From positions 1-64,000 of the IMG/VR virus record IMGVR_UViG_3300028829_003504: a DNA stretch of 64,000 bases. One strand, given 5' to 3'. This document shows positions 1 to 48,413 of this stretch, piece after piece. Source of the DNA: a virus. A program made the translations under genes and the position numbers. The notes under the pieces were generated by a model. That model worked only from the letters and a program-made list of their open reading frames with translations, searched no databases and had not been told where the DNA came from. The number at the start of each line of letters is the position of its first letter. Positions within the stretch are counted from its first letter, which is position 1.

Positions 1-309
1 TATAATCAAGCGTTACGTTTAGCTAAGACACTAGCACCTCGCTTACCTGAAGTTAGAGTGGATATATCACCTGACGTATTAGTTAAGGCCGCCTTTGATA
101 TAGCACAGATTGTTCAGGCACTATCTAGATTCGTTGACGATAGTGACGTACAGCAGGTTAAGTTAACCAAGTTCACTGTAGGAAAGCTGCACGACAAACT
201 GGAGCCTATAGCGGAGTTCTTATTAGCGTTACCTAAGAACCACGTGGCTATAAAGCATTTAGATAGCCATATAGCTAGGCTCGGTACGTACATGAAATCT
301 ATAAAGTAA
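1..309 (+). CDS. 3' end of a hypothetical phage protein (partial)
   Basis: The reading frame is open from the first base of the window and stops with TAA at 307-309, so the start codon lies outside. About 102 residues are visible, alpha-helical in character, ending DSHIARLGTYMKSIK. A GTG at 58 could act as an internal start, but the frame is equally good upstream of it. I do not recognise a family. It sits just before a terminator and the head gene cluster, so a structural or morphogenesis role is possible but not shown. Confidence 0.7.
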   Translation, partial: YNQALRLAKTLAPRLPEVRVDISPDVLVKAAFDIAQIVQALSRFVDDSDVQQVKLTKFTVGKLHDKLEPIAEFLLALPKNHVAIKHLDSHIARLGTYMKSIK

Positions 310-4849: not shown

Positions 4850-5329
4850 ATGCAGAACAACGCTAAAGACCTTATTGCCTTAGCAGCCCTTGCCTTTAAT
4901 CGAAAAGATTTTGAGACAGCAGGTACATTATTTGCATCTGCTATGTCTACTAAAGATACCGGAGAGTTCATTGAAAGCCTTATGGCAGACAACTACTCAC
5001 TGGCGGCTTTGTCTAGTACACTTGAAAACATTTCGGAAGAAACAGAACTAGATAATCTAGCTTCTGCTGCTGCTACGTTAAGCCTTTCTATGGAAAGTAC
5101 ATTCAAAGATAAAACCAAAGCCGCCTTGTCGGAGAGTGGGTTTATTAATGAAGACGAATTATCTGAATCTTATAGTGGAGATCACTATGATGACGAGGAT
5201 GATGAAGATGACGATGACGATGACGATGACGCAGACGAGGATGATGGAGAGGATGATGAAGATCTAAAATCAGAATCTTCAACGATAGACTTCGGTGCCG
5301 TAAGGTCTCCAATTCAAATCATTGAATAG
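4850..5329 (+). CDS. Small head-region protein with acidic C-terminal tract
   Basis: 159 residues from the ATG at 4850, chosen over an upstream TTG because GGAG lies 7 bases before it. The first 100 residues are helical; residues about 112-138 are nearly all Asp/Glu. The tract ends in LKSESS (139-144), the same motif that follows the acid tract of the scaffold-like protein at 726. It is a separate transcription unit between two terminators. A head-core or tail-completion role is possible. No family recognised. Confidence 0.6.
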   Translation: MQNNAKDLIALAALAFNRKDFETAGTLFASAMSTKDTGEFIESLMADNYSLAALSSTLENISEETELDNLASAAATLSLSMESTFKDKTKAALSESGFINEDELSESYSGDHYDDEDDEDDDDDDDDADEDDGEDDEDLKSESSTIDFGAVRSPIQIIE

Positions 5330-8660: not shown

Positions 8661-9335
8661 ATGTTAGTTTCGTTATCAGCTAAAGCCAAAGTGACAGACT
8701 TTCAGTGGTATACTTTTGAAGGTACGCGTAAGGTCTTGATAGAAAATGCAAACAGACACTACGACCTTGAGATAACCAAGGGTGAGCATTTCGGCCTAAA
8801 GTTAGGACGTACTCATTTCTGGCTGGTTCAAGTCGAAGAGGAATCTGGGGATATTATCAAATTTAAGTTAGAGCCTAAGAACGCTCGAACTATAGTTGAG
8901 AAGTCAAAAGGATTCAGCGGTAAGATAGGTAAGACTAAAGTCCAGCCTGGTACTTTCGGCAAAGAGCGTAAAGCCTCAGGTAAACCTCTTGGTACTACTC
9001 CTACTAGCGCATCACCTTTACCTGGTGGTGTACCTAGAGAAAATAAAGTAATAACCAAAGCAGTTAAAAAGATTAAGTTCCCAGGAGCCTCTAAGATAAC
9101 TCATGTTATGACTCAACGTGCCATCGAGGGTGAGATTTACCATTACTATGATATCAGCGACACATTACCTGGTTATCGACGTAAGCATAAACTTACTGTT
9201 AGAGAGGTAGGTAACTGGGCTAAAGATATTGAAGCCGCCGCCGAGTCTTCTATCAAGGGTATTGATGCTGAGATTGGTACGGTAAGATGGAAAGGTAAGT
9301 TGATAAGAGTGATGGCCTTATTAGAATTGGAGTAG
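8661..9335 (+). CDS. Protein with the phage's repeated KGE/GK domain
   Basis: 224 residues, basic. Residues about 12-85 contain FQWYTFEG, ITKGEHFGLKLGRTHFWLVQVEEE and FSGKIGKTK, which match a region near residues 538-620 of the 1003-residue protein at 31602 and, more distantly, the proteins at 10628, 11337 and 25016. The N-terminus MLVSLSAKAKV resembles the short tags of other genes in this phage. A Pro/Gly-rich linker joins a C-terminal alpha/beta segment. Function unknown; its place among tail genes suggests a virion protein. Confidence 0.6.
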   Translation: MLVSLSAKAKVTDFQWYTFEGTRKVLIENANRHYDLEITKGEHFGLKLGRTHFWLVQVEEESGDIIKFKLEPKNARTIVEKSKGFSGKIGKTKVQPGTFGKERKASGKPLGTTPTSASPLPGGVPRENKVITKAVKKIKFPGASKITHVMTQRAIEGEIYHYYDISDTLPGYRRKHKLTVREVGNWAKDIEAAAESSIKGIDAEIGTVRWKGKLIRVMALLELE

Positions 9336-9338
9336 TCT

Positions 9339-9860
9339 ATGTCAATGAAGAAGACTCTTGAGTTAGCCAAATCACTTAACGAAGGAGATAAGACTCCCTT
9401 ACCTAAATGGTTATGGAAAGTCGAGTCAATGCCTGCCTTCGACGGTGTGACATTAGAGCCTGAATACATCCAACAGTTTGGACTACCTTTTCCTAAGTTC
9501 GATACAGGTAATCAAATTGAAGTCGCCGGCGCTACGTTAACGTTTCCCGGTAAAATAGATGTGTCAAGTGTCACTATGCTTATACACGAAGACAATAAAG
9601 TCCGTGCATTGAAATATATATTCCAATGGATGTCAAACATTAGAAACCCAGTTACTGGGGGTTACTTCTTACCATCTAGATACAAGAAAGGTATTAACGT
9701 AGTCCTCCATGATAACAAGGGTGATCCCTTAGCCAAAGCTTCTTTACGAGGCGTATGGCCTAGTGCCATCCAAGATTGGGAACTGGTATATAACGATGAT
9801 GGGTTTCATCAAGTCAGTGTTCAACTGGAAGTTGACGCTTCCTACTTAGAAATTCTGTAA
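9339..9860 (+). CDS. Second tail-tube-like protein, baseplate or tube initiator candidate
   Basis: 173 residues, start ATG after TTGGAG. After a basic N-terminus it has the beta-rich layout of tube-fold proteins, including INVVLHDNKGDPLAKASLRGVWPSAI-type strands (compare the tube protein's IHAVWPTEV) and a late VSVQLEVDASYLEIL. Contractile-tail phages often encode extra tube-fold proteins that start or cap the tube. Only four bases separate it from the preceding gene. Confidence 0.5.
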   Translation: MSMKKTLELAKSLNEGDKTPLPKWLWKVESMPAFDGVTLEPEYIQQFGLPFPKFDTGNQIEVAGATLTFPGKIDVSSVTMLIHEDNKVRALKYIFQWMSNIRNPVTGGYFLPSRYKKGINVVLHDNKGDPLAKASLRGVWPSAIQDWELVYNDDGFHQVSVQLEVDASYLEIL

Positions 9861-10627: not shown

Positions 10628-11275
10628 ATGAGAATATTTATAAGCGAATCAGCTAGACTAACTAAGTCACTACGCGGCGCTACGGCCTATATCGCCAAGT
10701 CCAGTATCAAAGTAGGTGATGACGACCACGAAAGTAATATCAAGAAGGGTGAGAAGTTTTACTTGAAGACTCTTGGTAAGAAACATTACCTAATGGACGT
10801 TGAAGGTAAAGAGATTTATCAATTCGTTATTGATGAAAAGACTTTCAAAGCTTTGGACAACAAACATGAAGCCTTTAAGGATGAAGGTAAAGCGGCTACG
10901 CAGAAGAAAGGTAAAGCCAAGACTCATACTGACGGTGCTACTGGTATGAAAGAGAAACGCAAGCAAGCTAAATCGTCTAAAGGCGCCAATACGAAAAAGA
11001 TTAAGTCCTTATTGGACGATGGTTATAATAAAAATCTAGGCATCGGAGAATCAGATGCTAAGACTGCTATATCTGATGCTTTTAAAGGTAAGACCCACGC
11101 CCAAAGAGTTAAAGACATTAACAAGTCTAAGCTAGGTTTACACGAATATGATCCGGAAGACTTTGACTTGGACGAATCGGAATACGATAAGTTAGTTGGC
11201 AAACTTAAGAAAAAGCTAATAGACGTTTCTAAGAATATGGACTCAGGTGATAAACTCTCTGACTTCGGTCTATAG
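10628..11275 (+). CDS. Tagged lysine-rich protein, copy 1 of duplicated pair
   Basis: 215 residues. N-terminus MRIFISESARLTKSLRG is followed by the repeated domain (IKKGEKFYLKTLGKKHYL, YQFVIDEKTF) and a Lys-rich linker, then a conserved C-terminal segment AFKGKTHAQRVKDINKSKLG and a DKLSDFGL end. The first residues resemble the T4 internal-protein capsid-targeting peptide (FIxE followed by A or S), suggesting packaging in the head and removal by the prohead protease; this is inference. Function unknown. The copy at 11337 is its closest relative. Confidence 0.7.
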   Translation: MRIFISESARLTKSLRGATAYIAKSSIKVGDDDHESNIKKGEKFYLKTLGKKHYLMDVEGKEIYQFVIDEKTFKALDNKHEAFKDEGKAATQKKGKAKTHTDGATGMKEKRKQAKSSKGANTKKIKSLLDDGYNKNLGIGESDAKTAISDAFKGKTHAQRVKDINKSKLGLHEYDPEDFDLDESEYDKLVGKLKKKLIDVSKNMDSGDKLSDFGL

Positions 11276-11283
11276 TAAACTAG

Positions 11284-11340
11284 ATGGATTGGGAAACCTC
11301 AATCCGTGGCACTCGATTCAACCTTAAGAGACTACCATGA
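11284..11340 (+). pseudogene. Truncated remnant of the 12222 gene start
   Basis: ATG at 11284 opens an 18-codon frame, MDWETSIRGTRF then unrelated residues, ending in TGA. The first 12 codons match MDWETAIHDTRF of the gene at 12222. It marks the junction of the tandem duplication and is very unlikely to be functional. Confidence 0.75.
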
Positions 11341-12221
11341 GAATATTTATAAGCGAATCAGCTAGATTAACTAAATCACTCAGAGGCGCTACGGCCTATG
11401 AGGCCAAGTCTACTGTTAAAGTAGATGACGACGATCACGAAAGTAATATAAAGAAGGGTGAGAAGTTCTATCTTAAGAAGTTAGGTAAGAAGCATTACGT
11501 TATCGACCTTGAGAAAGAAGGCGGTAAGACTGTCTATTACCAATTTGCAGTCGATGAAGCCACTTACGATAAGTTAGCCAAGAAGCATACGAACACCGAT
11601 GATGCTCCTGGTATGAAAGAGAAACGCGAGCAGGCAGCAGGTCGTAAGGCTACTCAAAATAAGAAAGCTTCGGTCGGTTTAAAGTACACCCCCGCTAAAG
11701 GCAAGCACGACAACGTGGACCCTAAAATAAAGAAGAAGCTTAGAAAAGAATTCGAGACTGAGATTAAAGAGTTGAGGAAAACGGGCCAACACTTTGTAGG
11801 TAAACCTGGACTCAAGAAAGCCAAAGCTGCTTTCAAGAAAGCCATGGACCTCGCTGAGAAAGCAGGTAAAGCCAAAGACGGTAAAGGCAAGATTGCTCAA
11901 CGTGCAGACACTAAGAAAACTCAGAATAAAAAGAAAATCGTAACTGGAATCTTAAAGAATAAGAAATATCAAGAATTGGGCATGGGGGATTCCGCGAATC
12001 AGAGCGCCATGCTAGACGCGTTTAAAGGTAAGACACATGACCAGCGAGTTAAGGCTATTAAGAAATCAAATTTAGGCCTTTTCGAGTGGGACGAAGACGA
12101 TGATATATCTGAAAAAGAGCATAACGCTACTTTGGCAAAGATTAAGTCTGAACTTATTGATCTGTCAAAAAATATGAATAAAGGCGATAAGCTTTCCGAC
12201 TTCGGCCTAGATTATTTATAG
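11337..12221 (+). CDS. Tagged lysine-rich protein, copy 2 of duplicated pair
   Basis: 294 residues, start identical to copy 1 (MRIFISESARLTKSLRG). It keeps the repeated domain (IKKGEKFYLKKLGKKHYV, YQFAVDEATY) and the C-terminal AFKGKTHDQRVKAIKKSNLG and DKLSDFGLDYL, but the Lys/Ala-rich linker is about 75 residues longer. The strong basic charge suits a DNA-associated internal head protein. Its stop codon directly abuts the next ATG. Confidence 0.7.
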   Translation: MRIFISESARLTKSLRGATAYEAKSTVKVDDDDHESNIKKGEKFYLKKLGKKHYVIDLEKEGGKTVYYQFAVDEATYDKLAKKHTNTDDAPGMKEKREQAAGRKATQNKKASVGLKYTPAKGKHDNVDPKIKKKLRKEFETEIKELRKTGQHFVGKPGLKKAKAAFKKAMDLAEKAGKAKDGKGKIAQRADTKKTQNKKKIVTGILKNKKYQELGMGDSANQSAMLDAFKGKTHDQRVKAIKKSNLGLFEWDEDDDISEKEHNATLAKIKSELIDLSKNMNKGDKLSDFGLDYL

Positions 12222-24759: not shown

Positions 24760-25014
24760 ATGAAGCCCATTGAAATAAGCCTTTCGGCATCTCCCGTTGA
24801 AAAGAAAACAATAGAACTAGCTTTACTGAAAGAGTCACTAGAGGCAGCTAAAGAGAAGCTACCTATCTTAGTGAAAGCTTTACGTATGCAAGACTCTCAA
24901 AAAGGTAAGACTAAATACCGCTTACAGATAAAGAAACTTAACTTGAACATTAAGAAGAAATCCAAGAAAATCCAAAAAGTTTCTTTAACCCTACGTAAAA
25001 CTAAACGAGGTTAA
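24760..25014 (+). CDS. Small basic helical protein with ISLS-type N-terminal tag
   Basis: 84 residues, about a quarter Lys, predicted helical throughout. Starts MKPIEISLSASPVEKK, similar to the starts at 27136 and 8661. Strongly basic small proteins of this type suit DNA binding or an internal head protein. One base separates it from the next gene. Confidence 0.55.
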   Translation: MKPIEISLSASPVEKKTIELALLKESLEAAKEKLPILVKALRMQDSQKGKTKYRLQIKKLNLNIKKKSKKIQKVSLTLRKTKRG

Positions 25015-25015
25015 T

Positions 25016-25918
25016 ATGCAGACATTTATTGTAGAGTCAGCTGCAAAAGTACGAAAAGGAAATCTACCTAAAGAAGCCGTTGCGTATCGCTCAGTAGGAC
25101 GCGTTAAAGTAGAAGATGATAAGCATGAATCCGATATTAAGAAGGGCGAGAAATTCTACTTGATGGAATTCCGTAAGAAGTTTTATCTGCTTGACGTTGA
25201 AGGCAATGATATATACAAGTTTGCCATTGATGAAAAGACCTACAGACGTATATCTAAGAAGCATACCTTGTTGTCGGCTCCTAAATTTAAGTCAAAGCCG
25301 CTACCTGTCAAATTCAATAAACCCAATTACGGTTTCATTAAATCCGAAGTCCGTAAAGCAATGCAGCTTGTTAATGACGACCCCGGCCTTGCAGGTATCA
25401 TTGATGTCCTATACCGCGAAGACCATACGCATATAATCGTATACGGTTCGGCCAAAGGCTCGACTGTTACCTTGACTCACGTTTCTAAAGGCAAATGGTC
25501 TGCGGGTAGTTACGACGGAGAAAGTGTTGAGTATAGAAGCCCTACTAAACTTGAAGTAGCGTTTGCTCAAGCTAAAGCTATGTCGTTACCTAGCTGGAAG
25601 GGAGGTAAGCCTACGGCTAAAGCCGCTCCTGGTGATTTATTGAAGTATTTAGAAGACAACGTACATTTTAATTCCAGAACCGCCAACGTAAATTCTTTCC
25701 TTGTATCAGGTGATAAGAACCGTATTGACATTGATGCCGAAACAAGAGGCTATCCTGAAGATGCAGCGCGAGCCTTGCGTAGTAAACTAAACTCAAGTAA
25801 GATCAAGCAGTTGATTACTGAGGGTGGCTGGAAAGAAACTAATTTTAGCTCAGGCGAGGGCGACGATAGCAACTATGCTGGAGACCATGCCGCCTCCTCT
25901 ATAACTTACAAGCGATAG
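25016..25918 (+). CDS. Tagged protein with repeated KGEKFYL domain, internal-head-protein candidate
   Basis: 300 residues. N-terminus MQTFIVESAAKVRKGNLPK resembles the T4 internal-protein start (FIAEA then a basic KxKG stretch) in spacing and residues. The repeated domain follows (IKKGEKFYLMEFRKKFYLLDVEG, YKFAIDEKTY), related to those at 10628 and 11337. A middle domain (about 95-190) is alpha/beta, and the last 90 residues end in a Ser/Asp-rich tail. Function unknown. Confidence 0.6.
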   Translation: MQTFIVESAAKVRKGNLPKEAVAYRSVGRVKVEDDKHESDIKKGEKFYLMEFRKKFYLLDVEGNDIYKFAIDEKTYRRISKKHTLLSAPKFKSKPLPVKFNKPNYGFIKSEVRKAMQLVNDDPGLAGIIDVLYREDHTHIIVYGSAKGSTVTLTHVSKGKWSAGSYDGESVEYRSPTKLEVAFAQAKAMSLPSWKGGKPTAKAAPGDLLKYLEDNVHFNSRTANVNSFLVSGDKNRIDIDAETRGYPEDAARALRSKLNSSKIKQLITEGGWKETNFSSGEGDDSNYAGDHAASSITYKR

Positions 25919-25925
25919 GATACTC

Positions 25926-26402
25926 ATGGAAATTTTCATTAGTGAGAGCAAGACTCGTATAAGCGAAAGCACGTTACCTAAGTTTAAGAAGCCTCGTAAG
26001 CAAGGGGCCGTCATACCTTACATGTTCGACGATAAAGGTAATATACTGATTGTCCTTATCAAGTCAAAGCATGGCGGTAACTGGGGTCTTCCTAAAGGTG
26101 CTATTGAAAAGCATCTTACCAATAAGAAAAGTGCAAAGATGGAAGCACTTGAAGAAGCAGGACTTAAAGGTAAAATGGGTATGAAGATAGGTGAATATGA
26201 ATACGTTAAAGGTCTTACTGAACGTAAGCAGCATGTACGCGTATACCCTATGTTAGTTAAGAAGATGCTAAAGACCTACCTAGAAAGCAAATGGCGGATA
26301 CGTGAAGTAATGCCTGCACATAAAGCTATTAAGAAACTCAAAAAGAAGCAGTCTGTTTTGGTCAAGGCCCTTGTTTTAGAATTGTCTAAGCAAAGACTAT
26401 AA
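25926..26402 (+). CDS. Nudix hydrolase with tagged N-terminus
   Basis: 158 residues. Starts MEIFISESKTRISES, then WGLPKGAIEKHLTNKKSA and ALEEAGLKG, which is a Nudix box in the diadenosine-polyphosphate/inositol-phosphate-like form (W-x-LPKG...EALEEAGxxG). Two usual box residues differ: the first conserved Glu is Leu and the Arg is Met, though the EExG metal ligands remain. It probably hydrolyses a nucleoside diphosphate-X substrate. The tag suggests packaging in the capsid (inference). Confidence 0.75.
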   Translation: MEIFISESKTRISESTLPKFKKPRKQGAVIPYMFDDKGNILIVLIKSKHGGNWGLPKGAIEKHLTNKKSAKMEALEEAGLKGKMGMKIGEYEYVKGLTERKQHVRVYPMLVKKMLKTYLESKWRIREVMPAHKAIKKLKKKQSVLVKALVLELSKQRL

Positions 26403-26483
26403 GACCTTACATGGTGCAGTACACGTAGATTAGCTCCATCGGCGCTAACTTAAATAATAAGAATTAAACCTTAAGGCCAAAAT

Positions 26484-27125
26484 ATGTTACCTATATCCAT
26501 AAAATTAAACCCTCTAGACTCAGAATCGAATCTTCTTCAATACCTTCCTGACTTTGAAGAAGGGGAATCTACCTCGTCTCTCATAGAGAGTACAGAGAAG
26601 AAATTTGGTTCTATTGTAGTTTACCTACATGCGCTAGGTTCTTATAACTACCGTATTGAATGGTTCAGCAAAATGACAGGTGCATCTACTAGTCTTGTCA
26701 GATCATCTAAAGGAAAGTACTTAGTTGTACGTAAATGGGCAGCTATTAAAAAGATGCCTGATGTAAGCTCACTGTTTACAAGCCGCAAACAGGCGCTAAT
26801 ACACTTTTTATCTAATGTGGACGTTATCAAAGCTGCGGATACTACTATGAATTCCGCAAAGCAGTTATGCTTAGAACTATTTGCCAAACAGGAAGGCTTG
26901 AAAGAGATTAAGCCTACACGCTTCCCTAGAATTAGAATGCAGGGTGCAATAGGAAGACGTATTGAAGTACGTGCACCTAATAGTACGAAAGACAGAGTAG
27001 TAGCCTATGGAGTTCTACTACAAATAATAGGAAACCTCGCCGAAGTTAAGATAACTGAACGAATCGATCTTTCTAACCCGAGTGATTTCCAGAAATTCCC
27101 AATGAAGCAGATTTACTTACCTTAA
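26484..27125 (+). CDS. Hypothetical protein
   Basis: 213 residues, ATG after AAGGCCAAAAT. Starts MLPISIKLNPLDSES, loosely like its neighbours' tags. Alpha/beta with a basic C-terminal half (RFPRIRMQGAIGRRIEV). An 81-base gap upstream contains a short hairpin (TTAGC/GCTAA). No family recognised. Confidence 0.55.
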   Translation: MLPISIKLNPLDSESNLLQYLPDFEEGESTSSLIESTEKKFGSIVVYLHALGSYNYRIEWFSKMTGASTSLVRSSKGKYLVVRKWAAIKKMPDVSSLFTSRKQALIHFLSNVDVIKAADTTMNSAKQLCLELFAKQEGLKEIKPTRFPRIRMQGAIGRRIEVRAPNSTKDRVVAYGVLLQIIGNLAEVKITERIDLSNPSDFQKFPMKQIYLP

Positions 27126-27135
27126 GGGGAAATTC

Positions 27136-27516
27136 ATGAGACCTATACTAATTAGTCTATCTAAATCAGGGTTTAGTACAGACCCTAAGAGAATCCTCTC
27201 TCGCATAAAAGATTACGTAGCAGGACGACCTACCAATTTCGCATCACATGGTAACTTATGCTACGGCGTAGTGGCGGACTATATTAAAGCTCTAGGTGAT
27301 ACCTCGGGATACACTATAGTTCTTTTAGGTTCTGGTGACTATAGTATACATGGCATATTACTTGATCCAAAAGGCGAAGTAGTAGCAGATAAACAAGAAG
27401 GTTTAGGTAAATGGGATGGTAAGAAGTACAACAAACGTAAAGTGCTTACTAGAAAAGGAATTAAGACTTTACCTAAACCTATCTCATACTCAGTGGTTCT
27501 AAAGGAATCACTTTAG
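27136..27516 (+). CDS. Hypothetical protein, possible papain-like fold
   Basis: 126 residues. Starts MRPILISLSKSG, the ISLS tag. GNLCYGVVADYIKAL, then YSIHGILLDPKGEVVADK gives a Cys...His...Asp order seen in papain-like cysteine peptidases and transglutaminase-fold proteins. Short for such an enzyme; the assignment is tentative. Confidence 0.5.
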   Translation: MRPILISLSKSGFSTDPKRILSRIKDYVAGRPTNFASHGNLCYGVVADYIKALGDTSGYTIVLLGSGDYSIHGILLDPKGEVVADKQEGLGKWDGKKYNKRKVLTRKGIKTLPKPISYSVVLKESL

Positions 27517-27525
27517 GAAAAATAC

Positions 27526-29187
27526 ATGAAACAATTTACATCAATCAGTGCTGTAGATACTGACTCGGTGAAGGCATTTTCTCAGGTAATGGTATACTTG
27601 GCATACATGCGAGGAATCGGTGCCTTATCAAACTCTGCTTTGAAAACACTAGCCTCTCTAGAATCTAGATCTTATCCTTTCCTTGAGAGATTCAAAATAA
27701 GAAAGCCCTTATTCAAACGTATTATTGAAGATACAAGTAACAATGAATACGACGAAGATGATTGGTTGGCCTTAGTTAAAATACTTAGAGCCAAAAAAGA
27801 TATCATACATGCTGAGACTGACATAGACACTCACTTCTATAAACTAATATTCGATTGTGCTAGCTATATGATACGAGGCACGGATAGTGCATTAGTCCGT
27901 ATAGGTAAGGCTGTGTCTCACTTCCAAGACCCGAACTTGGGCCGAATGTTCTTAACATCCGTTGCAGACCAAGGTGACATATTAACTAAATTGAAGACAA
28001 TAGTACGACGGATGGTTAAACGCGATGGCCTTGAGATAGACGCCGACGAACGTAAAGTACTTAAGGTTAAAAAGCCCGATCTACTTAAACAGTACAACAA
28101 GTTACGCCGCGATCTTAATGCCGTACCTAAAGACTTTGTGTCCTCCTATATAAGACAAACTGGTAATAGTTTAGTAGCGATACATGAAGTTATTGACCAA
28201 CTCCATAAAGCAGGTATCAAGCACCATAGTATACCTAGAGGTTTCAAAGGCTATTTGGATGATACTCTTTCATTTTATACAGAAGCTAAGTTGAAGCTTA
28301 ACGGGGTTCCTGCAGGTGAAGTCTTAATGAATCCCTCATACGATCCTAAGAAAGATAACGGGTACGTGTGTCAGGCTAAAGCTCCTATGGCAAAAGACTA
28401 TTCTCGTATATATACGGTCAAATTCAAATCAGATAGCACAAAGAAGAAATTTGATGCTGTAGGTAATCTATCTACTAAGGTAAGTTCTATTAGGGCCAAG
28501 TGGCTCTCTGACTTACGTAAAGGTACTGCCGAACGTGCTGCTGTTCTAGCTATGTGCTGTGAACTGATTTACTTGACTTCCGCCAGAATAGGTTCAACTA
28601 AAGGATCGACGGCTGGTGAGAAAACTTACGGTTTTACCTCACTGATAGTAGGCCACTATAAGAAGAAAGGTAAAGCTAGATTACTTGAATATAAAGGTAA
28701 GAAATCACAAACCCAGAGACATACCATTCCAGATAACCCCTTAAGTTCAAAAATCTGTATTGAGTATTTAGACGAAATGGTCATAGGCAAGAAACGCGCT
28801 GACCGATTGATTACTTTTAGGGGCAGGCCTGTCTCGCCTAAGTCCATTAACGATTATCTAAGAACTCTAGGTGTACCTGAAGGCGTTACTATACATAAGT
28901 TTAGAACTTTACGGGGGACTATGATAGCACGTAAAGCTATAGATAGAAGCCCTTTCAAGAATAGAACAAAACAACCTACACAGAAACAAGTAAACGATTG
29001 GTTGAAGAAAAGTTTAGAGAAGGTAGCCAAAGAGTTAGGCCACTTTAATAATGGTAAACTTACTGTTAATACCGCTATACAGAATTACATCGACCCGTCC
29101 ATACTTGAAGAATTCTATGAAGAAGCAGGAGTAAGACCTCTTGCTGTAATTGAACGTAGTATCAAGCTAGCCAAAGGCAATGTGTAA
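27526..29187 (+). CDS. Type IB DNA topoisomerase
   Basis: 553 residues. The C-terminal half has the TopIB catalytic set: Arg354 in SARIGS, Lys392/393 in YKGKKSQ, the HKFRTLRGT block with His457 and Arg460, and Tyr521 in QNYIDPS, the nucleophile that attaches to the 3' phosphate. The pattern YGFTSLIVGHYKKKGK and VAKELGHFNNG agrees with bacterial and poxvirus-like enzymes. The first 250 residues are an uncommon helical extension. It relaxes supercoils without ATP. Starts MKQFTSISAVD, weakly like neighbouring tags. Last of the tagged run. Confidence 0.85.
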   Translation: MKQFTSISAVDTDSVKAFSQVMVYLAYMRGIGALSNSALKTLASLESRSYPFLERFKIRKPLFKRIIEDTSNNEYDEDDWLALVKILRAKKDIIHAETDIDTHFYKLIFDCASYMIRGTDSALVRIGKAVSHFQDPNLGRMFLTSVADQGDILTKLKTIVRRMVKRDGLEIDADERKVLKVKKPDLLKQYNKLRRDLNAVPKDFVSSYIRQTGNSLVAIHEVIDQLHKAGIKHHSIPRGFKGYLDDTLSFYTEAKLKLNGVPAGEVLMNPSYDPKKDNGYVCQAKAPMAKDYSRIYTVKFKSDSTKKKFDAVGNLSTKVSSIRAKWLSDLRKGTAERAAVLAMCCELIYLTSARIGSTKGSTAGEKTYGFTSLIVGHYKKKGKARLLEYKGKKSQTQRHTIPDNPLSSKICIEYLDEMVIGKKRADRLITFRGRPVSPKSINDYLRTLGVPEGVTIHKFRTLRGTMIARKAIDRSPFKNRTKQPTQKQVNDWLKKSLEKVAKELGHFNNGKLTVNTAIQNYIDPSILEEFYEEAGVRPLAVIERSIKLAKGNV

Positions 29188-29247: not shown

Positions 29248-30297
29248 ATGGTACCTTTATCCCACAACGTAAAATCCGTTAAATACGTAAGGTCACCCAG
29301 TGACGTATTTAAGTTAGAGCCACTTCCTGCGGGTATTAAAGAACAAACTATTGGTTTTAGAACACAGCTGGCACGTATACTAACAAACGACGACTACCGA
29401 CGTATTGTTATATTAGGCCCCTGTAGTATCCATGATACCGAAGCAGGTTTAGAGTACGCAAACTTAGTCAAAGAATGGCAAAAGAAGTTACCTCACCTGT
29501 TACTTGTTATGCGTGTTTATTTTGAAAAACCAAGAACAACTACAGGCTGGAAGGGATTCATCAACGACCCTAACTTGGATGGATCTTTTGATATCAATCT
29601 AGGCTTACTTAAGGCTCGTGATTTCTTAATCAAGATTGCCCAAATAGGCGTGCCTACTGCTACCGAGTTTCTCGATCCATTCACGCCGAACTACTTCAGG
29701 CATTTGTTTTCTTGGGGAGCTATAGGTGCAAGGACTCTAGAGTCTCAAATACACCGTGAACTTGCATCAGGTTTGCCTATGCCTATTGGCTTCAAGAACT
29801 CGACCGGCGGTAACTCTAAGTTATTGGTTAATGCTATTAAGTCCGCACGGAGTCCACACTCTTATTTAGGTATCGACTCCGAGGCAAGACTATCTATAAT
29901 GGAGTCTGAGGGTAATCCTTATGCACATACAGTCCTCAGAGGTTGCACCAATGGACCTAATTACAATAAGAACAGCTTAATGTCTACTACGGTGTTATTG
30001 CAGAGAAATAACGTAAGTGATAGTATAATTGTAGATTGTTCGCATGACAATTGTGACGGTGATTACAAAAAGCAGTATGGGATATCAAGATACGTATTCG
30101 CCGAGATTCGCCAAGGGCACTACAACGTTAAAGGTGTTATGCTTGAATCGTTCCTTGAGGAGGGACGACAATCTATAAGCGATTCACTGACTTACGGAAA
30201 GTCAATCACGGACCCTTGTTTAGGTAAAGCAACCACTGCGTCTCTTCTTATAGACTTAAATGGCCAAGCGTCTTCACTGGAGTTATACTATGCGTAA
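29248..30297 (+). CDS. 3-deoxy-D-arabino-heptulosonate 7-phosphate synthase, class I
   Basis: 349 residues, near full length for the AroF/G/H family. It condenses phosphoenolpyruvate with erythrose 4-phosphate, the first step to chorismate. Visible landmarks: GPCSIHD with Cys59, YFEKPRTTTGWKG, ATEFLDP, WGAIGARTLESQ, GFKNSTGG, VDCSHDN, MLESFLEEG and SITDPC. These include the metal ligands (Cys, His, Glu, Asp) and catalytic lysines, so it should be active. Rare as a phage gene. It overlaps thymidylate kinase by 8 bases, suggesting a link to nucleotide or folate supply. Confidence 0.93.
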   Translation: MVPLSHNVKSVKYVRSPSDVFKLEPLPAGIKEQTIGFRTQLARILTNDDYRRIVILGPCSIHDTEAGLEYANLVKEWQKKLPHLLLVMRVYFEKPRTTTGWKGFINDPNLDGSFDINLGLLKARDFLIKIAQIGVPTATEFLDPFTPNYFRHLFSWGAIGARTLESQIHRELASGLPMPIGFKNSTGGNSKLLVNAIKSARSPHSYLGIDSEARLSIMESEGNPYAHTVLRGCTNGPNYNKNSLMSTTVLLQRNNVSDSIIVDCSHDNCDGDYKKQYGISRYVFAEIRQGHYNVKGVMLESFLEEGRQSISDSLTYGKSITDPCLGKATTASLLIDLNGQASSLELYYA

Positions 30298-31601: not shown

Positions 31602-34600
31602 ATGCTAGGAAATCAAATAGCCAGAGCCATAGGCACACTTAAGTCAACTGGAATACTTTCAAATTTAACTGTAGACTACCAGAGTCAGAGTGCCTCCGTA
31701 CAACTCCTCACTAGTACCTCAAGTGCTGATGAAAACGGCTTTAATAGAACTACGGTTGCTACTCACATGATGCCAGAACGTGGCTACCTGATTAGAACTG
31801 AGCAAGTGTATCAGGATGGTGATGAAGACAACGAGTTTGAAATGAAAACTGCGTTCACCATGAATGAAGAATATATAGGAGACCCTGAGTGGGCTGAACG
31901 TCTATACAATATGGGTATTGTTCCTCAACTAGCTAGCCCTAAACATAAAGTATGTTCAGTAGGCTACTGTGAGAAAGAAGACAAATGGTACGGCTGGAGC
32001 CATAGAGCGATTAGTGGTTTCGGAGTAGGTAGTGAGGTGACCAGAGGTCATTGTGCATATAAACCTTCTACTAAGGCAGAATTCCTACAAAGCTTAGATG
32101 ATTGGTATCGCCACAACGGCAACGAAGTGAATGTTATTCCTACTGACGATGGTGCTATCGTAAACACTACATCTTTTCGAGTGACTGATGGTAAGCCTTT
32201 ACGATATACCCACATTGAAGAGTTTAAACCAGGTCGCGGTTCATTTAAGGTTTGTGATATGGATGAGGCTAAGACACTAGCCTTGGATTTCGCCGAATCC
32301 GTCAGCGCTGCTGCGGTTAACGTAGATTCCGCTATAGTACAGGATTCGGTACTCAGTGAACTGTCTAAACGTTTTCAAGAGATGTCGGCACGTATGCTAA
32401 CGAAGGCCAATCAACTACTTCGTATACAGAGATTCCTCAATGTAAATACAGATGGAGACTTAGACGGTCCAGGCTGCGCCGATAAATTTCATACTAATCT
32501 TAAATCAACCATAGAAGCCCTTAACGGTCCTAATGACAGTGACGCTAACTTTGGTCTTACTACACGTAAAGCTTCTTTGGTTAATATACCCTCAGGTGAT
32601 AATCAACCTGATGTAGGAACTCCTCCTAAACCAGTCGAAGAAGTAGGCCCTGTTGTAGGGGAAAAAGACGACGATGAAGATTACACGGATAGACTAGATA
32701 GGCTTAAAGCTCGACACGGTAGTACAAACTACATTGAATCAGAAATACAACAACGTACCATTGAGATGTTCTCCGGAGCTGAAAGTCCCGTTAGCCTTAG
32801 CATGGAGAGTGAGGAATCAGAAGAAATACTGGCTGAGTGCGAACACAGTCGTATTATCCGTAACGTTATCCACTTTGACGAGTATGCCCCTGCCTCGGGT
32901 TTACCCTTTGTTAAAAACAAAGAAAATGGTAACACGAGTAGCATCCTGGATGCCAATTTGTCGGATTATAAGGTCATGGACGAACGTTGTGCTTCTATAA
33001 TACAAGAAGCCCGACTTAAAATTATATCTAATCGAGAAGCGTATAAGGCCCGAACTGAAAAGCAGAAATCAGAAGATGACAACTGGTCAAAGGTCATCAA
33101 TAAGATGCTCACTGGGTCAGAGTTGAATGAAGGTCCAGTTAGATCCAGTAGAACGAGCGGTGTTGATTCAGGTATGGCCTCAGAAGCAGCGGCAAAGTTT
33201 GCACCTACTGAGTTTAGTTGGTTCAAGTATATAGGTAAGAAGACACGCAGCTTCGATCACCATAAGCAAGACGTTGAACTTGAAATCGAAACTAATGAGC
33301 GTTTCGGTATTATGTATAATTCAAGACTTAAAGCCTACATTATAGTTGAAGCATCTATGTTTGGCGCAAGGGGAGAGGTGTGGGAATTCCGCATTAACGA
33401 AAAGGAACTTAAACTTCTAGTTAAGTCTAGTAGACCTTTCAATGGTAAAATCGGCGGACAGAAGATTGTTAAAGGTGAACCTACTAACTTAAACCTGTTT
33501 ACTAATCGTAAGCAAGTAGAAGTTAAACCGTTGCAGGATACAGGAATGGTTGCTCCTAATCGACGAGTTAAAAAGACGGGAGGTGTTAAGATCATTAAAC
33601 GCCTTGATATGGATGATGTTGAAGACGGTGTTAAGATTAAACGTAAGCCTGTCTATATTGGTGTGTTCCAACCTAGCGGTAGTAGTGACAAGTATAACTT
33701 GGTGACCAACGAGAAACTATCCGAATTGAAGACTGACCTACAATCTAGAATGGAAGCCTTGCCTGATATCGGCTCGTTTGCTACTATATACCAATTACGT
33801 TCTGATAATCGTTTCGTCATTAAGGCATTGAAGGCTAAAGTACCTAAGATACAACCAGCACATAAATCCATACTTGATCGTGAGTCTCTCATAAAGCCTG
33901 TTGAGTTCAAAGGTAAAAATATACGTTTACGTAATGATAGTGTACCACTACCTCATTTCCAACCAGGTGCTCCTGAGTTTACCGAACCTATGTTCTTCGG
34001 TAACCAGACAAACGTGTTGGCTGAGATTCGTGACTCCATAGTATTGGATAAATACTTTAGTGGTGCATTCACTTTGCTTGACCCTAAAGGTTATATGCAA
34101 AAGAAATCTTACAAGCGATCGTTAAACCAAGGTAAGGCTAGTGAGCGTCGAAGCAAAATGGGTATTAGAGATTTAAAGTCGAAAGGTATGGTGTTCTTAG
34201 AACTAGTTGCTTTGCATGATTCAAATTCTTTTGAGGACGAAGCTTATGCCTTACTTATACGTTTACGTAAACAGTTCGGTAAGAAGATTATAGGTCAGGT
34301 CGAAGTGAAGCGTTTGAAGCTAGATGGTATCAATAAAGAGTACCTAACAGTTAGACTAATCGCTAACATTAAGCCAGTGAGCGATGAAATTAAAAAACGA
34401 TCACTTAAACTGTATGACCTAATTGAGTCTAATAAGCTTTCTATAGGAATCAATCAATATGGATTTATGGTAGGTGACAAGCTAATTCCTTGTGCTGTGA
34501 TTGAACCCGTGTATACGGAAGGTAGCATTAAGGTCCAACCTACTAATGCTCAGCTACGTCCAGAAGTTGTGTCCGATTTATATGACTTAAATGGTACTGT

Positions 34601-34613
34601 TAAACTATTCTAG
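31602..34613 (+). CDS. Large multidomain late protein, possible internal head or ejected protein
   Basis: 1003 residues. N-terminal domain (to about 215) has VGYCEKEDKWYGWSHRAISGF near residues 120-140, a motif I have seen in other phage hypothetical proteins. Residues about 325-415 are acidic and Ser/Glu-rich with LSMESEES. Residues 538-620 are a copy of the repeated domain of the protein at 8661 (FSWFKYIGKK through FNGKIGGQK). The last 300 residues are basic alpha/beta (FLELVALHD, RLIANIKPV). It has its own promoter-like region and terminator. The Glu-Ser site could allow prohead protease processing. Function unknown. Confidence 0.6.
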   Translation: MLGNQIARAIGTLKSTGILSNLTVDYQSQSASVQLLTSTSSADENGFNRTTVATHMMPERGYLIRTEQVYQDGDEDNEFEMKTAFTMNEEYIGDPEWAERLYNMGIVPQLASPKHKVCSVGYCEKEDKWYGWSHRAISGFGVGSEVTRGHCAYKPSTKAEFLQSLDDWYRHNGNEVNVIPTDDGAIVNTTSFRVTDGKPLRYTHIEEFKPGRGSFKVCDMDEAKTLALDFAESVSAAAVNVDSAIVQDSVLSELSKRFQEMSARMLTKANQLLRIQRFLNVNTDGDLDGPGCADKFHTNLKSTIEALNGPNDSDANFGLTTRKASLVNIPSGDNQPDVGTPPKPVEEVGPVVGEKDDDEDYTDRLDRLKARHGSTNYIESEIQQRTIEMFSGAESPVSLSMESEESEEILAECEHSRIIRNVIHFDEYAPASGLPFVKNKENGNTSSILDANLSDYKVMDERCASIIQEARLKIISNREAYKARTEKQKSEDDNWSKVINKMLTGSELNEGPVRSSRTSGVDSGMASEAAAKFAPTEFSWFKYIGKKTRSFDHHKQDVELEIETNERFGIMYNSRLKAYIIVEASMFGARGEVWEFRINEKELKLLVKSSRPFNGKIGGQKIVKGEPTNLNLFTNRKQVEVKPLQDTGMVAPNRRVKKTGGVKIIKRLDMDDVEDGVKIKRKPVYIGVFQPSGSSDKYNLVTNEKLSELKTDLQSRMEALPDIGSFATIYQLRSDNRFVIKALKAKVPKIQPAHKSILDRESLIKPVEFKGKNIRLRNDSVPLPHFQPGAPEFTEPMFFGNQTNVLAEIRDSIVLDKYFSGAFTLLDPKGYMQKKSYKRSLNQGKASERRSKMGIRDLKSKGMVFLELVALHDSNSFEDEAYALLIRLRKQFGKKIIGQVEVKRLKLDGINKEYLTVRLIANIKPVSDEIKKRSLKLYDLIESNKLSIGINQYGFMVGDKLIPCAVIEPVYTEGSIKVQPTNAQLRPEVVSDLYDLNGTVKLF

Positions 34614-37202: not shown

Positions 37203-37991
37203 TTAGTTCTTGCGTTTTTTAACAGAAACGCCCATCGCTAATAATGCAATACCCATTAGCGCTAATGGTTTTGGTTCTGGTACTTCTACGGCTGTAATAC
37301 TACCGACTGTAACATCAAAAGACCGCACTCTATGTCCTTCAGGCAGGTCTTCACCACCGATAAAGTCTAGGTATTCTGCAGGTGCGGATACATTACCGCC
37401 TACTACGAGTGCCGTAACGTCTGTAAGATCTGCAAACTCAAATACTCCATAATTCAAGAAAGCATTATGAGGAGTCACGTAATCATCATGGCCGGGGCCT
37501 AACACGGTAACCTTTTCAGATTTAGTACCTGCGTCCCACCAAATTTCAACTTCGAATAGGTAGTTTTCATCTGCAAAAACTGTCTCAGTCATGAATGCAC
37601 TAAGCCCTTCTTCCAGGAAATTAACCCCACGCCCAGTAACCAAGTCCATTAAACCGCTTGTGTTGACTTCGGACGAATTGTCTTCACCATCCCACTGCAT
37701 CCAGAAACTTGCGTCCACTGTTGACTGTGCTGAAAAAGACATATTGCCATCGGCTACACCTATCGCGGCAGTATATTCTTCATTCAAGGCACCGTAGTTT
37801 GTAACGACTAAGTCACGCTCGCCTCCCAAGATACCTGCGCCGAATACTGAACTCGAAACAGTCTCACCGACTTCCGCCGTTATGAATTCTTGGTCTGTAT
37901 TAAAAGTATCTATGATACCCGCGTTTGCTACACTTGACATCGAGACTAGTATCACTGCCAGTACTAACAGTATGTTAATAATAGTTTTCAT
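37203..37991 (-). CDS. PEP-CTERM sorted surface protein
   Basis: 262 residues. The N-terminus has a signal peptide (basic MK, hydrophobic core to about residue 22, ANA cleavage site). The body is beta-rich, acidic and low in Cys, like other exported PEP-CTERM proteins. The C-terminus is VPEPKPLALMGIALLAMG then VSVKKRKN: the PEP motif, a transmembrane helix and a basic tail, recognised by exosortase in hosts that make exopolysaccharide. It has its own promoter region (TATAAACA-like, about 35 bases upstream), ribosome site AAAGGAAA and terminator, so it looks like an independent cargo gene. Confidence 0.85.
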   Translation of the reverse strand: MKTIINILLVLAVILVSMSSVANAGIIDTFNTDQEFITAEVGETVSSSVFGAGILGGERDLVVTNYGALNEEYTAAIGVADGNMSFSAQSTVDASFWMQWDGEDNSSEVNTSGLMDLVTGRGVNFLEEGLSAFMTETVFADENYLFEVEIWWDAGTKSEKVTVLGPGHDDYVTPHNAFLNYGVFEFADLTDVTALVVGGNVSAPAEYLDFIGGEDLPEGHRVRSFDVTVGSITAVEVPEPKPLALMGIALLAMGVSVKKRKN

Positions 37992-43277: not shown

Positions 43278-44729
43278 CTACGCAGCTAACAGTTTTTCAT
43301 AGAAACCGTAGGCCACTTCCCTAACTTCATCGAAGGTTTGATTGCGAAGAAGCTCGCCGGTATTCCAGACAGGCTCAAGAAGCCCGCTATTTATACGGTT
43401 ATCAACTTGCCTCCAAACGATATCACCAAATTCATTAAACTCTACGCAGAAGTAACCTTCTTTAGAATGTTTATTCGGATCAGCTTTAGGACGTTTGCTG
43501 GTTTTAGTAGGAACGCCGTTAATAGTCATCATGCTTGCTTTCATAGCGAAGCCACCATCGTCACGGCCGTGAGCTTGTAGTAGTTTACCGCCTTGACCAA
43601 ACACTAAATTTAAAGCGCTGAGCTTTTTGCTTCTCATTAAGTCTTGGATATCAGTGATAACTTGTACGTCAGTTCCGTCACCCTGTATTACACGAATGTA
43701 ATCAGGTAGAACTTTATAGCCTTTTCTATTGATCTCGTATCCGAAGATTTCCATCAAACGCTCAACTATACGTACAGGTTCGTTAACTGCATGACCTGAG
43801 TCAGGGCGTATTATCAAGCAACCCTTTCCCTTACCTTCTTTGAATGCTGCAATGACTTCATCTTTAAGTTCTTCCCAGTAGCCTAAAGCACGGTCTGTGT
43901 CATAGGTATCAGGTAGTACACTTACTTTGTCGCCGTTTGCTACATACGTTTTAAGTAGGAAAGAGAAAAGTTCTTTTTCACGGGCCTCACCCCAAGATAG
44001 AACTACGTTATGCTCAATAGCAAAAACAGAATATGCTGACATACCCTCTTTAGTGCCGTAAGCTTGCTCAGCAGTCCATGTACCTTCAAGAGTATCACTA
44101 CCCTTAGAAGTAACTTGGTGAGACATTCCACCAACTGATGCACCTTCACCACAATTTACACCTCTAGCACCGAAGTCATTAAGAGCAAAATCCATATAGC
44201 CGGCGATTAGATCATCGTCTATACTTTCATTGGCAAATTTACCTATAATAACTTTCTGCTCTAGACTCTTAGTTGCAACGGTAATAGAATACCAGATGCG
44301 CTGAATTAAAGCTTCGAAGTACATTGGTAACCACGCAAACTCTTTATCAGTGTTGGTAATAACCATCAGTGGAGTTTTCTGAGCCGTTACAGTACCTTCA
44401 GGTAGTGCGCGGAACTCAAGTGGAAGTTTACCATCATGCTTCGTAACAATAAGTTCCCAACCTTTACGATTGAACTTAGCGCCGTGCCGCAATGCGAAGT
44501 CCTCGCAGATATCAATCATTTCCATTGTGATACGTTCACTAAAGTAACGCTTAAGGATATATTGCAATCCAAAGAACATTGTTTTAGTCATACCGTAACG
44601 GCTTTCAAGATAGACGTAAGAGAATTCTAAACCTTCAACCAATTGTTCGTAGTGACCCAATTTGTAGCTGTCGGTTCTCAAGATTAATGGTACATCTGTA
44701 ATTAACATATTAGTGTTAAAAAGTTTCAT
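43278..44729 (-). CDS. nadV: Nicotinamide phosphoribosyltransferase
   Basis: 483 residues, the usual length. TDSYKLGHYEQ near the start, RGVNCGEGASVGGMSHQ, RPDSGHAVNEPVRIV, RVIQGDGTD and NLVFGQGGKLLQ are signature blocks of NAMPT. It joins nicotinamide to phosphoribosyl pyrophosphate to make NMN. With the NMN adenylyltransferase at 47337 it forms a complete route to NAD, as in KVP40 NadV/NatV. Its 27-base leader is identical to that of the adenylyltransferase. Confidence 0.95.
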   Translation of the reverse strand: MKLFNTNMLITDVPLILRTDSYKLGHYEQLVEGLEFSYVYLESRYGMTKTMFFGLQYILKRYFSERITMEMIDICEDFALRHGAKFNRKGWELIVTKHDGKLPLEFRALPEGTVTAQKTPLMVITNTDKEFAWLPMYFEALIQRIWYSITVATKSLEQKVIIGKFANESIDDDLIAGYMDFALNDFGARGVNCGEGASVGGMSHQVTSKGSDTLEGTWTAEQAYGTKEGMSAYSVFAIEHNVVLSWGEAREKELFSFLLKTYVANGDKVSVLPDTYDTDRALGYWEELKDEVIAAFKEGKGKGCLIIRPDSGHAVNEPVRIVERLMEIFGYEINRKGYKVLPDYIRVIQGDGTDVQVITDIQDLMRSKKLSALNLVFGQGGKLLQAHGRDDGGFAMKASMMTINGVPTKTSKRPKADPNKHSKEGYFCVEFNEFGDIVWRQVDNRINSGLLEPVWNTGELLRNQTFDEVREVAYGFYEKLLAA

Positions 44730-47336: not shown

Positions 47337-48413
47337 TTAGTCTTGTTGAGTGAAACCTGTTCCGTAACCACTAGCTAACATGTTTTGAATAATGAAGTAG
47401 TGATCCGCGTACAAGGCTTTACTCATTCTACGTACTTGAGCAAAAGGGAACCAACGAGCTTCTTTAGCATCGTCCATCCCTTTTACCTTAGGTAATTTTG
47501 AATCAGTAAGAATGAAAGATCCAACATGTGTGGTGAAATCACCACGGTCATCTCGCATAGGGTCTTCAAACATCTTCTTACCCCGATATGCCTGTTCTAG
47601 CGCACGAGGCGGTACGTTAATGTCTGTTTCTTCTTTAAGCTCACGTAAGATACAATCTCTTGCATACTCACCTGGGTTCTTAAAGCCACCAGGTAAAGCC
47701 CATTGGTCTTTGCCTGGGAAGTCTCTGCGTTTAATCAACAATAAGTGACCGTGGCAAACTACAAGTGCATCTCCCGTTATGAAATTAATTCCGTGAGGCA
47801 GATCCTTGTAGTCATTCTTGTATGCTAGGACTGAGCGATTGTGACCTACCAACCACTCGTACTCCTTTGTTTTACGAAACTTCTCCAAAAACACATTAGT
47901 CGAAGTTGGACAATTCGCAAAAGAAACTTGAGGATATACTGCGTTGTTGAAGTATATCTCACGTAACGGAGTTGCAGATATAGCATCCAAGTTATCTACA
48001 TGATGTTTCTTCCAACGAGGAAAGCCTCTAAGATAATAACTAGTATTATCTTTCAAGTGACCAACAAGTGCAATGTCATCGGGAAGACCCAAATGCTGCG
48101 CATGGTCATGGGCTAAACGTTGTACTTCTGATTCCCAATCATATTCAACATAAAGGTAATCGTTGAGCGGCTTAACTTGACATTTGAAGGATTTGGTTCC
48201 TGTCAGTGCAGGTCGAATCATTTCTAAACGTTCTTCGTATGAGAACGGATTTGCCAAGCTACGACTACGGTTGATTGATCCAATAAGTATCAATACATTG
48301 TCAGCAATCTTGCACGCTTCATCAATTAAGTAATCGTGACCGTTATGGTATATATGACTACGCATAATCACAACAGCCAAAGCTACCTTACCTTTTACTT
48401 TAAAATCTTTCAT
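47337..48413 (-). CDS. natV: Bifunctional NMN adenylyltransferase / Nudix hydrolase
   Basis: 358 residues. Residues about 12-190 are the nucleotidyltransferase domain: SHIYHNGHDYLI (the HxGH motif) and ISATPLREIY (the ISxTxxR motif). Residues 215-345 are a Nudix domain with GGFKNPGEYARDC followed by RELKEETDI, the full box. This matches NadM-Nudix and KVP40 NatV. It turns NMN into NAD, and the Nudix part probably removes ADP-ribose. Pairs with the NAMPT gene and shares its leader. Confidence 0.93.
   Translation of the reverse strand: MKDFKVKGKVALAVVIMRSHIYHNGHDYLIDEACKIADNVLILIGSINRSRSLANPFSYEERLEMIRPALTGTKSFKCQVKPLNDYLYVEYDWESEVQRLAHDHAQHLGLPDDIALVGHLKDNTSYYLRGFPRWKKHHVDNLDAISATPLREIYFNNAVYPQVSFANCPTSTNVFLEKFRKTKEYEWLVGHNRSVLAYKNDYKDLPHGINFITGDALVVCHGHLLLIKRRDFPGKDQWALPGGFKNPGEYARDCILRELKEETDINVPPRALEQAYRGKKMFEDPMRDDRGDFTTHVGSFILTDSKLPKVKGMDDAKEARWFPFAQVRRMSKALYADHYFIIQNMLASGYGTGFTQQD

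Follow-up and report, generated by a model that had tools for sequence, protein, structure and literature searches.

A phage-specific N-terminal tag shared by unrelated late proteins of a Lu11/PaBG-group jumbo phage is a probable capsid-targeting sequence

The closest described relative of the signal considered here is the T4 capsid-targeting sequence (CTS; IPI, IPII, IPIII; gp21), an N-terminal peptide of about 10 residues with an h-h-A-x-A core (h, hydrophobic residue) that is borne by unrelated basic internal proteins. According to the available text of PMC9026906, IPIII needs its first 10 residues to be incorporated into the head; positions 4 and 7 are important to targeting, as are positions 8 and 10 to processing, and targeting can work while processing fails. 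The proteases of T4, phiKZ and SPN3US require Glu, as given in the available text of PMC5694885. The jumbo phages phiKZ and SPN3US load many head proteins and have a head protease; several SPN3US propeptides are longer than 100 residues, with cleavage at A-x-E, and a short tag common to many proteins is not described for either phage in the available text of the reports (PMC5694885, PMC13282480). In phage P1, an N-terminal signal sends the injected, defence-related protein DarB to the head, for which 30 residues suffice (PMC9024508, available text). Here, we analyze a short N-terminal tag shared by late proteins encoded in the first 64,000 bases (the window) of IMG/VR virus record IMGVR_UViG_3300028829_003504 (261,788 bases), in which a first-pass annotation had listed nine genes with such a tag, six of them consecutive. 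Genes are named below by their first position in the record, which within the window is also the window position.

The phage is a jumbo phage of the Lu11/PaBG group ("Lupandier"). It encodes what characterizes that group, namely a homologous major capsid protein (MCP; 3461-4567, + strand), a head maturation protease (256827-257615; phrog_18299, E 3.4e-95), and two tail sheath genes (6464 and 229915) with products that are 37% identical. The MCP matches 92 phage records, the best being Erwinia, Pseudomonas Lu11/PaBG/HRDY3, and NCTB phages, and its alignment places a candidate processing motif in the N-terminal region. Because the record ends in a 144-base direct terminal repeat (window 1-144), we take it to be circular, at about 261.6 kb. 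The protease lies near the MCP, across the record ends, and the neighborhood of protease, scaffold-like protein, and MCP is kept in related phages. Proteins with a KMPT-N domain (PF20294/phrog_36535) are present in this phage and in all five group relatives compared. Single-protein scans of viral contigs returned either one contig 100% identical to the window or nothing.

The tag is real and more widespread than had been noticed at first. All nine N-termini initially listed read as stated, from ATG starts, most of them behind a purine-rich stretch. We built a nine-column profile from 50 tags, chosen by eye, of the relatives NCTB, PaBG, Lu11, HRDY3, and Y3, leaving the present phage out; 52 starts had been listed, and a Lu11 start that is called differently and a Y3 start without the core were dropped. 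The scan covered gene starts only, and a score of at least 5 was counted as high. Fourteen of the 289 genes of the present phage scored high, against 0.95 expected from internal windows, and shuffling of residues 2-15 gave 1.79 such genes on average and never more than 7 in 500 trials. Leave-one-out scans gave an excess over expectation in the relatives as well (Lu11, 19 versus 1.0; HRDY3, 21 versus 1.9; NCTB, 9 versus 0.8; PaBG, 9 versus 2.1; Y3, 6 versus 0.7). There was none in the outgroup jumbo phages Motura (1 versus 1.4) and PhiXhv-12 (2 versus 1.1), the topoisomerases of which fall outside the eight best profile scores of their phage. A global search with [ILVMF][AST]x[AS] over all genes had produced a modest excess only and was replaced by the profile.

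Eight of the nine listed genes are supported by this outside-trained profile, and the run of consecutive genes, all on the + strand, holds five tagged members out of six; the exception in both cases is 26484-27125, which ranks 41st of 289 and was rejected as a tagged gene. Ranks 1 to 3 all fall within the run, to a Nudix hydrolase (25926-26402, MEIFISESK...; PF00293, 33.7 bits), a small basic protein of pI 10.5 (24760-25014, MKPIEISLSAS...), and 27136-27516 (MRPILISLSKS...), for which there was no family match and, with a model of pLDDT 60.5, no fold match at an E of ≤0.001. A type IB topoisomerase (27526-29187, MKQFTSISAV...; PF01028, 3e-22; phrog_23460, 1e-130; matches in 17 phage records) ranks 10th, and 25016-25918 (MQTFIVESA...) ranks 19th. 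The presence of a Nudix hydrolase, and of a topoisomerase that had been named as a possibility, is hereby confirmed. Upstream on the same strand lie 8661-9335 (MLVSLSAK..., 5th) and the paralogues 11337-12221 (6th) and 10628-11275 (7th), both starting with MRIFISESA; tblastn of 10628 and 27136 against phages gave no match. Beyond the window, further tagged genes are found at 259266 (4th), 243966 (11th), 176533 (13th), and 258370 (22nd). An additional one (MKVFVSNSG..., 123 amino acids), recognized from the 144-bp terminal repeat and its open frame, starts at record position 261582 and crosses the circular ends, its 3' part occupying window positions 1-309 (+). The gene at 176533-178194 (- strand) encodes a 553-residue protein, MARYVLISESAN..., that has no family match and lies far from the head genes. 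The starts at 4850, 194647, 69481, and 53696 also score at least 5 and were taken as chance or, for 4850, as an untagged head protein, and 249544, with its T4-like FIAEA, was not counted, the match lying 14 residues in and a similar NCTB start being without FIAEA.

The consensus of the tag is M-[KE]-I-x-[IL]-[AS]-[LIV]-[AS]-A, not FIxE. After Met, the 50 outside tags have mostly K/E, then I/L/M, any residue, I/L (42/50), A/S (46/50), mostly L/I/V, A/S (50/50), and often A; since a pattern of this kind had guided the choice of the core, the counts are descriptive and no test of the set. The literal motif FIxE[SA] is found in four genes of the present phage, against 0.07 expected, and in none of the five relatives; it was rejected as the defining feature. 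Each phage has its own spelling, MKIQLAVA or MKIMLATA in Lu11, MEMMLALA in HRDY3, MKIFISLSA in Y3, MKI[IV]SISA in NCTB, and MRIFISESA in the present phage. Tags of the S-x-S type account for 10/10 in the latter and for most of those in Y3 and NCTB, PaBG is mixed, and Ala occupies core position +3 in 13/13 Lu11 and 15/15 HRDY3 tags. At the variable core position, the 10 tags of the present phage have E (four), L (three), Q (two), or I (one), with no other clear difference between the forms. Since this position is variable, the ISE and ISL forms are a single tag, and the two classes, Glu and Leu, that had been proposed give way to a continuum.

Like a T4-type CTS, the tag is short, lies in the first ~10 residues, and is shared by nonhomologous proteins. 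When compared by BLAST from residue 16 on (E < 1e-3), the 62 tagged proteins group into 35 body families, a number that might fall if remote homologues were joined; those of the present phage fall into eight. Mean tag similarity is 2.24 between different families of the same phage, 1.54 within a family across phages, and 1.48 between different families of different phages, and the within-between difference is 0.757, whereas 1,000 label shuffles reached 0.255 at most. These values indicate that the tag goes with the phage, not with the protein behind it. Two families illustrate this modularity. In the first, 8661, 10628, 11337, and 25016 share a domain of ~70 to 100 residues behind the tag (KMPT-N), which is why we count them as one family rather than as four independent cases. 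PF20294 matches 8661 at residues 14-56 with 30.3 bits (cut-off, 28.9) and 11337 with 17.2 bits, below that cut-off; 10628, which has a basic C-terminal part, is connected to 11337 and 25016 by BLAST, and 25016 continues into a C-terminal part of no assigned function. A model of 10628 (pLDDT 66.5, used only for the domain start) shows a beta-rich domain at about residues 19 to 80. The family member 259616 starts directly with the domain, and the four above as well as 243966 carry the tag ahead of it.

The alignment of Nudix-family orthologues is conserved from about [RK]xQSG onward. The Motura and PaBG proteins are untagged and begin within eight residues of that point, and tag-like extensions precede it in SNUABM_35, SNUABM_3, AD1, Y3, fHe-Yen9-02, Yoloswag, Lu11, HRDY3, and the present phage, JA13 having a weaker form. 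The HRDY3 and Lu11 genes, which lie outside the late cluster and were absent from the training set, score 9.3 and 6.3. Comparison within this family indicates that the tag is an add-on. In Erwinia phage Yoloswag, the annotated GTG start of the Nudix gene (9013-9459) lies inside the tag, and an in-frame upstream ATG gives MEIIVSLSAR; annotations can therefore miss tags.

The tagged genes are clustered around the head genes, as 10 of the 14 high-scoring genes are no more than 25 kb from the MCP gene, a region that holds 51 of the 289 genes (P 7.5e-6; paralogues and 4850 counted). Moreover, motifs matching the tag are found in the head-core proteins of 5/6 phages. Counted over the pooled scaffold-like protein, small protein, and MCP residues 1-95 and compared with shuffles, SES occurs 7 times versus 1.1 in the present phage and 10 times versus 1.35 in Y3, and A[VTLI]A[AS] occurs 14 times versus 1.0 in Lu11, 17 versus 1.1 in HRDY3, and 10 versus 0.9 in PaBG. 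The two dialects are not exclusive in core proteins, because A[VTLI]A[AS] is also held by the present phage (5 versus 0.66) and NCTB (3 versus 0.56). Since six patterns were tried in six phages, single weak P values for these motifs mean little. In the present phage, SES occurs four times in the product of 726-2684 (+; phrog_20988, 1.7e-89), a probable scaffold or core protein by its place beside protease and MCP, and three times in a small acidic protein encoded after the MCP (4850-5329, +), a probable core protein. The counterparts of the 726-2684 product in relatives are annotated as "ATPase" (phrog_20988, RefSeq), yet these proteins are acidic, of low complexity, and encoded between protease and MCP, and we consider a scaffold more likely than an ATPase.

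The profile, from which T4 had been excluded, also recovers the T4 signal. Among 245 called T4 genes, IPIII ranks first, the prohead scaffold protein gp22 second, and IPII fifth, meaning that 3 of the top 5 are among the 8 internal/core proteins (P 2e-4). This likeness to an experimentally defined CTS, together with the N-terminal position, the unrelated late proteins, the clustering with head genes, and the head-core motifs, bears out the initial proposal that the tag resembles the T4 capsid-targeting peptide. The jumbo-phage tag differs from the T4 CTS in that its core position is mostly not Glu and in that it varies by phage (S-x-S or A-x-A). The parallel to the P1 DarB signal drawn here is one of proposed function.

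Unlike T4, the jumbo phages carry more cargo each, including enzymes. In the present phage, the cargo comprises the topoisomerase IB (PF01028), the Nudix hydrolase (PF00293), KMPT-N proteins, and several proteins without assigned function. Three tagged HRDY3 proteins have weak GNAT matches below the cut-offs. Lu11 gp211 has a weak ART-PolyVal match (22.9 bits, under the family cut-off of 31.2), which is reminiscent of T4 Alt and the polyvalent-protein ADP-ribosyltransferases, described as injected host-modifying enzymes in the available text of PMC5512222, from which it differs in remaining below that cut-off. PADLOC gave no match among 10 proteins, and a family search with ten tagged Y3 and NCTB proteins yielded nothing convincing. 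The tagged proteins of the present phage are basic (median pI of 9.78 versus 5.76 for the rest, P 2e-5), and a weaker shift toward higher pI is seen in NCTB, PaBG, Lu11, and HRDY3, making 5/6 phages in all; mostly basic cargo is thus shared with the T4 system, Y3 excepted. A further candidate cargo is the 1,003-residue late protein of 31602-34613 (+), which has no standard tag. It combines Tad6, a type I Thoeris inhibitor domain (residues 59-235; PF25188, 2.7e-42), with a KMPT-N-like region (residues 536-629; phrog_36535; PF20294, 24.1 bits, below the cut-off), has a partial homologue in NCTB, and is possibly an anti-defense protein carried in the virion.

As for direct evidence from particles, 14 proteins, including gp83, are listed for CsCl-purified PaBG virions in the available text of PMC7412058, with a mass loss of the MCP of about 20%. 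By the mass ratio of gp80 and gp81, gp83 fits a 320-residue protein beginning MLIKINLLEA, the listed masses looking monoisotopic. Its gene adjoins that of the topoisomerase, and it scores 6.0 in the leave-one-out scan without being a training tag. It follows that a tagged cluster protein can occur in the virion, and nothing more.

With the sharing of the tag, its phage specificity, its modularity, its clustering, and its likeness to the T4 signal all read from sequence, we interpret it as a capsid-targeting sequence whose cargo is enclosed in the prohead and delivered with the DNA, an interpretation to which we assign a probability of about 0.8. A number of observations weigh against it. The training tags were selected by eye; the T4 genes scoring at least 5 number 2 versus 1.25 expected, no excess in itself; the A/S difference between tags is paralleled, albeit far more weakly, by genome-wide Ala/Ser content; and the NCTB head-core proteins show no excess of SES (2 versus 1.1) or S[EL]S (2 versus 2.0). 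Furthermore, the tagged proteins of Y3 are not basic (P 0.51), gp83 is the one clearly tagged protein among the 14 listed for PaBG virions, which is no excess over chance, virion proteomics for the present phage was not found, and most tags are without the Glu that the characterized T4-type and jumbo-phage proteases need (PMC5694885, available text).

The alternatives to targeting into the head fare worse. A tag at the start codon of many late genes might merely aid their translation or expression through favorable first codons. Against this, most synonymous codons are used at the fixed Leu and Ala positions of the tag, and in Lu11 residues 5, 6, and 8 stay fixed while their codons differ synonymously; as these codons vary freely, the peptide is what is conserved. 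In addition, late tail genes nearby (for example sheath 6464 and tube-like 8077) are outside the top 32 scores, and the HRDY3 and Lu11 Nudix orthologues are tagged though outside the cluster, all of which renders this explanation very improbable. A shared N-terminal address would be compatible with any compartment, and the tag could lead to the tail, an intracellular replication compartment, or a membrane. The likeness to T4 IPIII and gp22, the matching motifs in head-core proteins, and the MCP/protease neighborhood all argue for the head, and the tag is too short for a Sec signal; we regard such a different address as improbable. Finally, the tagged proteins might be duplicates that kept one N-terminus, as paralogues do occur among them (the KMPT-N family; 10628/11337). 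For the set as a whole, this is contradicted by the 35 body families and by the observation that tags are more alike on unrelated cargo of a single phage than on homologous cargo from different phages, and common descent seems barely conceivable.

Processing of the tag, on which a capsid-targeting function need not depend in T4, may be considered separately. The first-pass annotation had proposed a propeptide of the T4 type, which the prohead protease would cut after Glu, with a cleaved class (E) and an uncleaved class (L). The phage does encode a head maturation protease, FIxE[SA] is in excess in its genes, and SES is repeated in its head-core proteins and those of Y3. However, Glu is rare at the variable core position, with 3/50 among the outside tags (Y3, 1/8; NCTB, 1/8; PaBG, 1/6; Lu11, 0/13; HRDY3, 0/15) and 4/10 in the present phage, so that [ILF]-x-E before a cut is generally lacking, and the E, L, Q, and I forms of the present phage are otherwise not clearly different. 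The cut after Glu is not supported as a rule for all tags, a gp21-type cut is not expected because the core position is mostly not Glu, and we consider this scheme unlikely. Alternatively, the protease of the group may follow another rule and cut inside h-[AS]-x-[AS] or behind it, as in scaffold and MCP N-terminus. The same motif is present in tag, scaffold, and MCP region of one phage (VATASS in Lu11, IATASS in HRDY3), and a cut there would remove about 72 of the 368 residues (19.6%) of the PaBG MCP, where the loss reported in the available text of PMC7412058 is about 20%. On the other hand, [AS]-x-E is found by eye a few residues downstream in 5/6 MCPs (T-N-E in Y3), fits the 20% equally well, and resembles the rule known from jumbo phages, which in SPN3US is A-x-E (PMC5694885, available text), and a known cleavage site for the Lu11/PaBG group was not found. 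We rate this second scheme as doubtful, if a little less so than the cut after Glu. Cleavage at h-[AS]-x-[AS] and no cleavage at all are both possible.

Other genes of the window may be mentioned here. Directly after the tagged cluster, 29248-30297 encodes a DAHP synthase (PF00793, E 2.7e-70). The genes at 43278-44729 and 47337-48413 (-) encode an NAMPT-like nicotinamide phosphoribosyltransferase and a cytidylyltransferase-Nudix fusion, which are likely an NAD+ salvage pair in a phage that also encodes a Thoeris inhibitor domain; the fusion, a second Nudix protein, is untagged. The product of 37203-37991 (-), for which there was no Pfam match, combines a signal-like N-terminus with a C-terminus that we take to resemble a PEP-CTERM sorting signal, which is unusual for a phage.

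Returning to the tag as a capsid-targeting sequence, we infer the following course of events. Late in infection, the tag would bind the tagged proteins to the scaffold or core of the forming prohead, in which they would become enclosed and, after scaffold removal and DNA packaging, would remain. Together with the DNA they would then pass into the next host cell and act before phage gene expression. The incoming DNA would be the target of the topoisomerase IB and the basic, DNA-binding-like proteins, and host metabolism or host proteins that of the Nudix, GNAT-like, and ADP-ribosyltransferase-like proteins. The tag would exist in a separate version in each phage, fitted to the head proteins of that phage, and newly acquired cargo would therefore have to be re-tagged.

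To our searches, which covered open-access full text only and not the original genome papers of Lu11 and Y3, a description of this tag did not come up. Tentatively, and with somewhat less than even confidence, the tag may be viewed as a postal code peculiar to each phage and co-evolving with its head, the dialects (S-x-S or A-x-A) being read by the scaffold and possibly by the protease. Effectors would then be exchangeable between phages only if re-tagged, the injected arsenal would be readable from the genome, and the tag would be recognized whether it is cleaved or not, in contrast to the T4 and phiKZ types, which depend on Glu. If the capsid-targeting function is correct, short-tag targeting would extend from T4 to a distant group of jumbo phages and would show a signal changing together with the head, and the short tag could serve to direct proteins of choice into phages that infect Pseudomonas or other hosts. 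The proteins that these jumbo phages inject, including many without assigned function as well as the topoisomerase IB, would become predictable from sequence.

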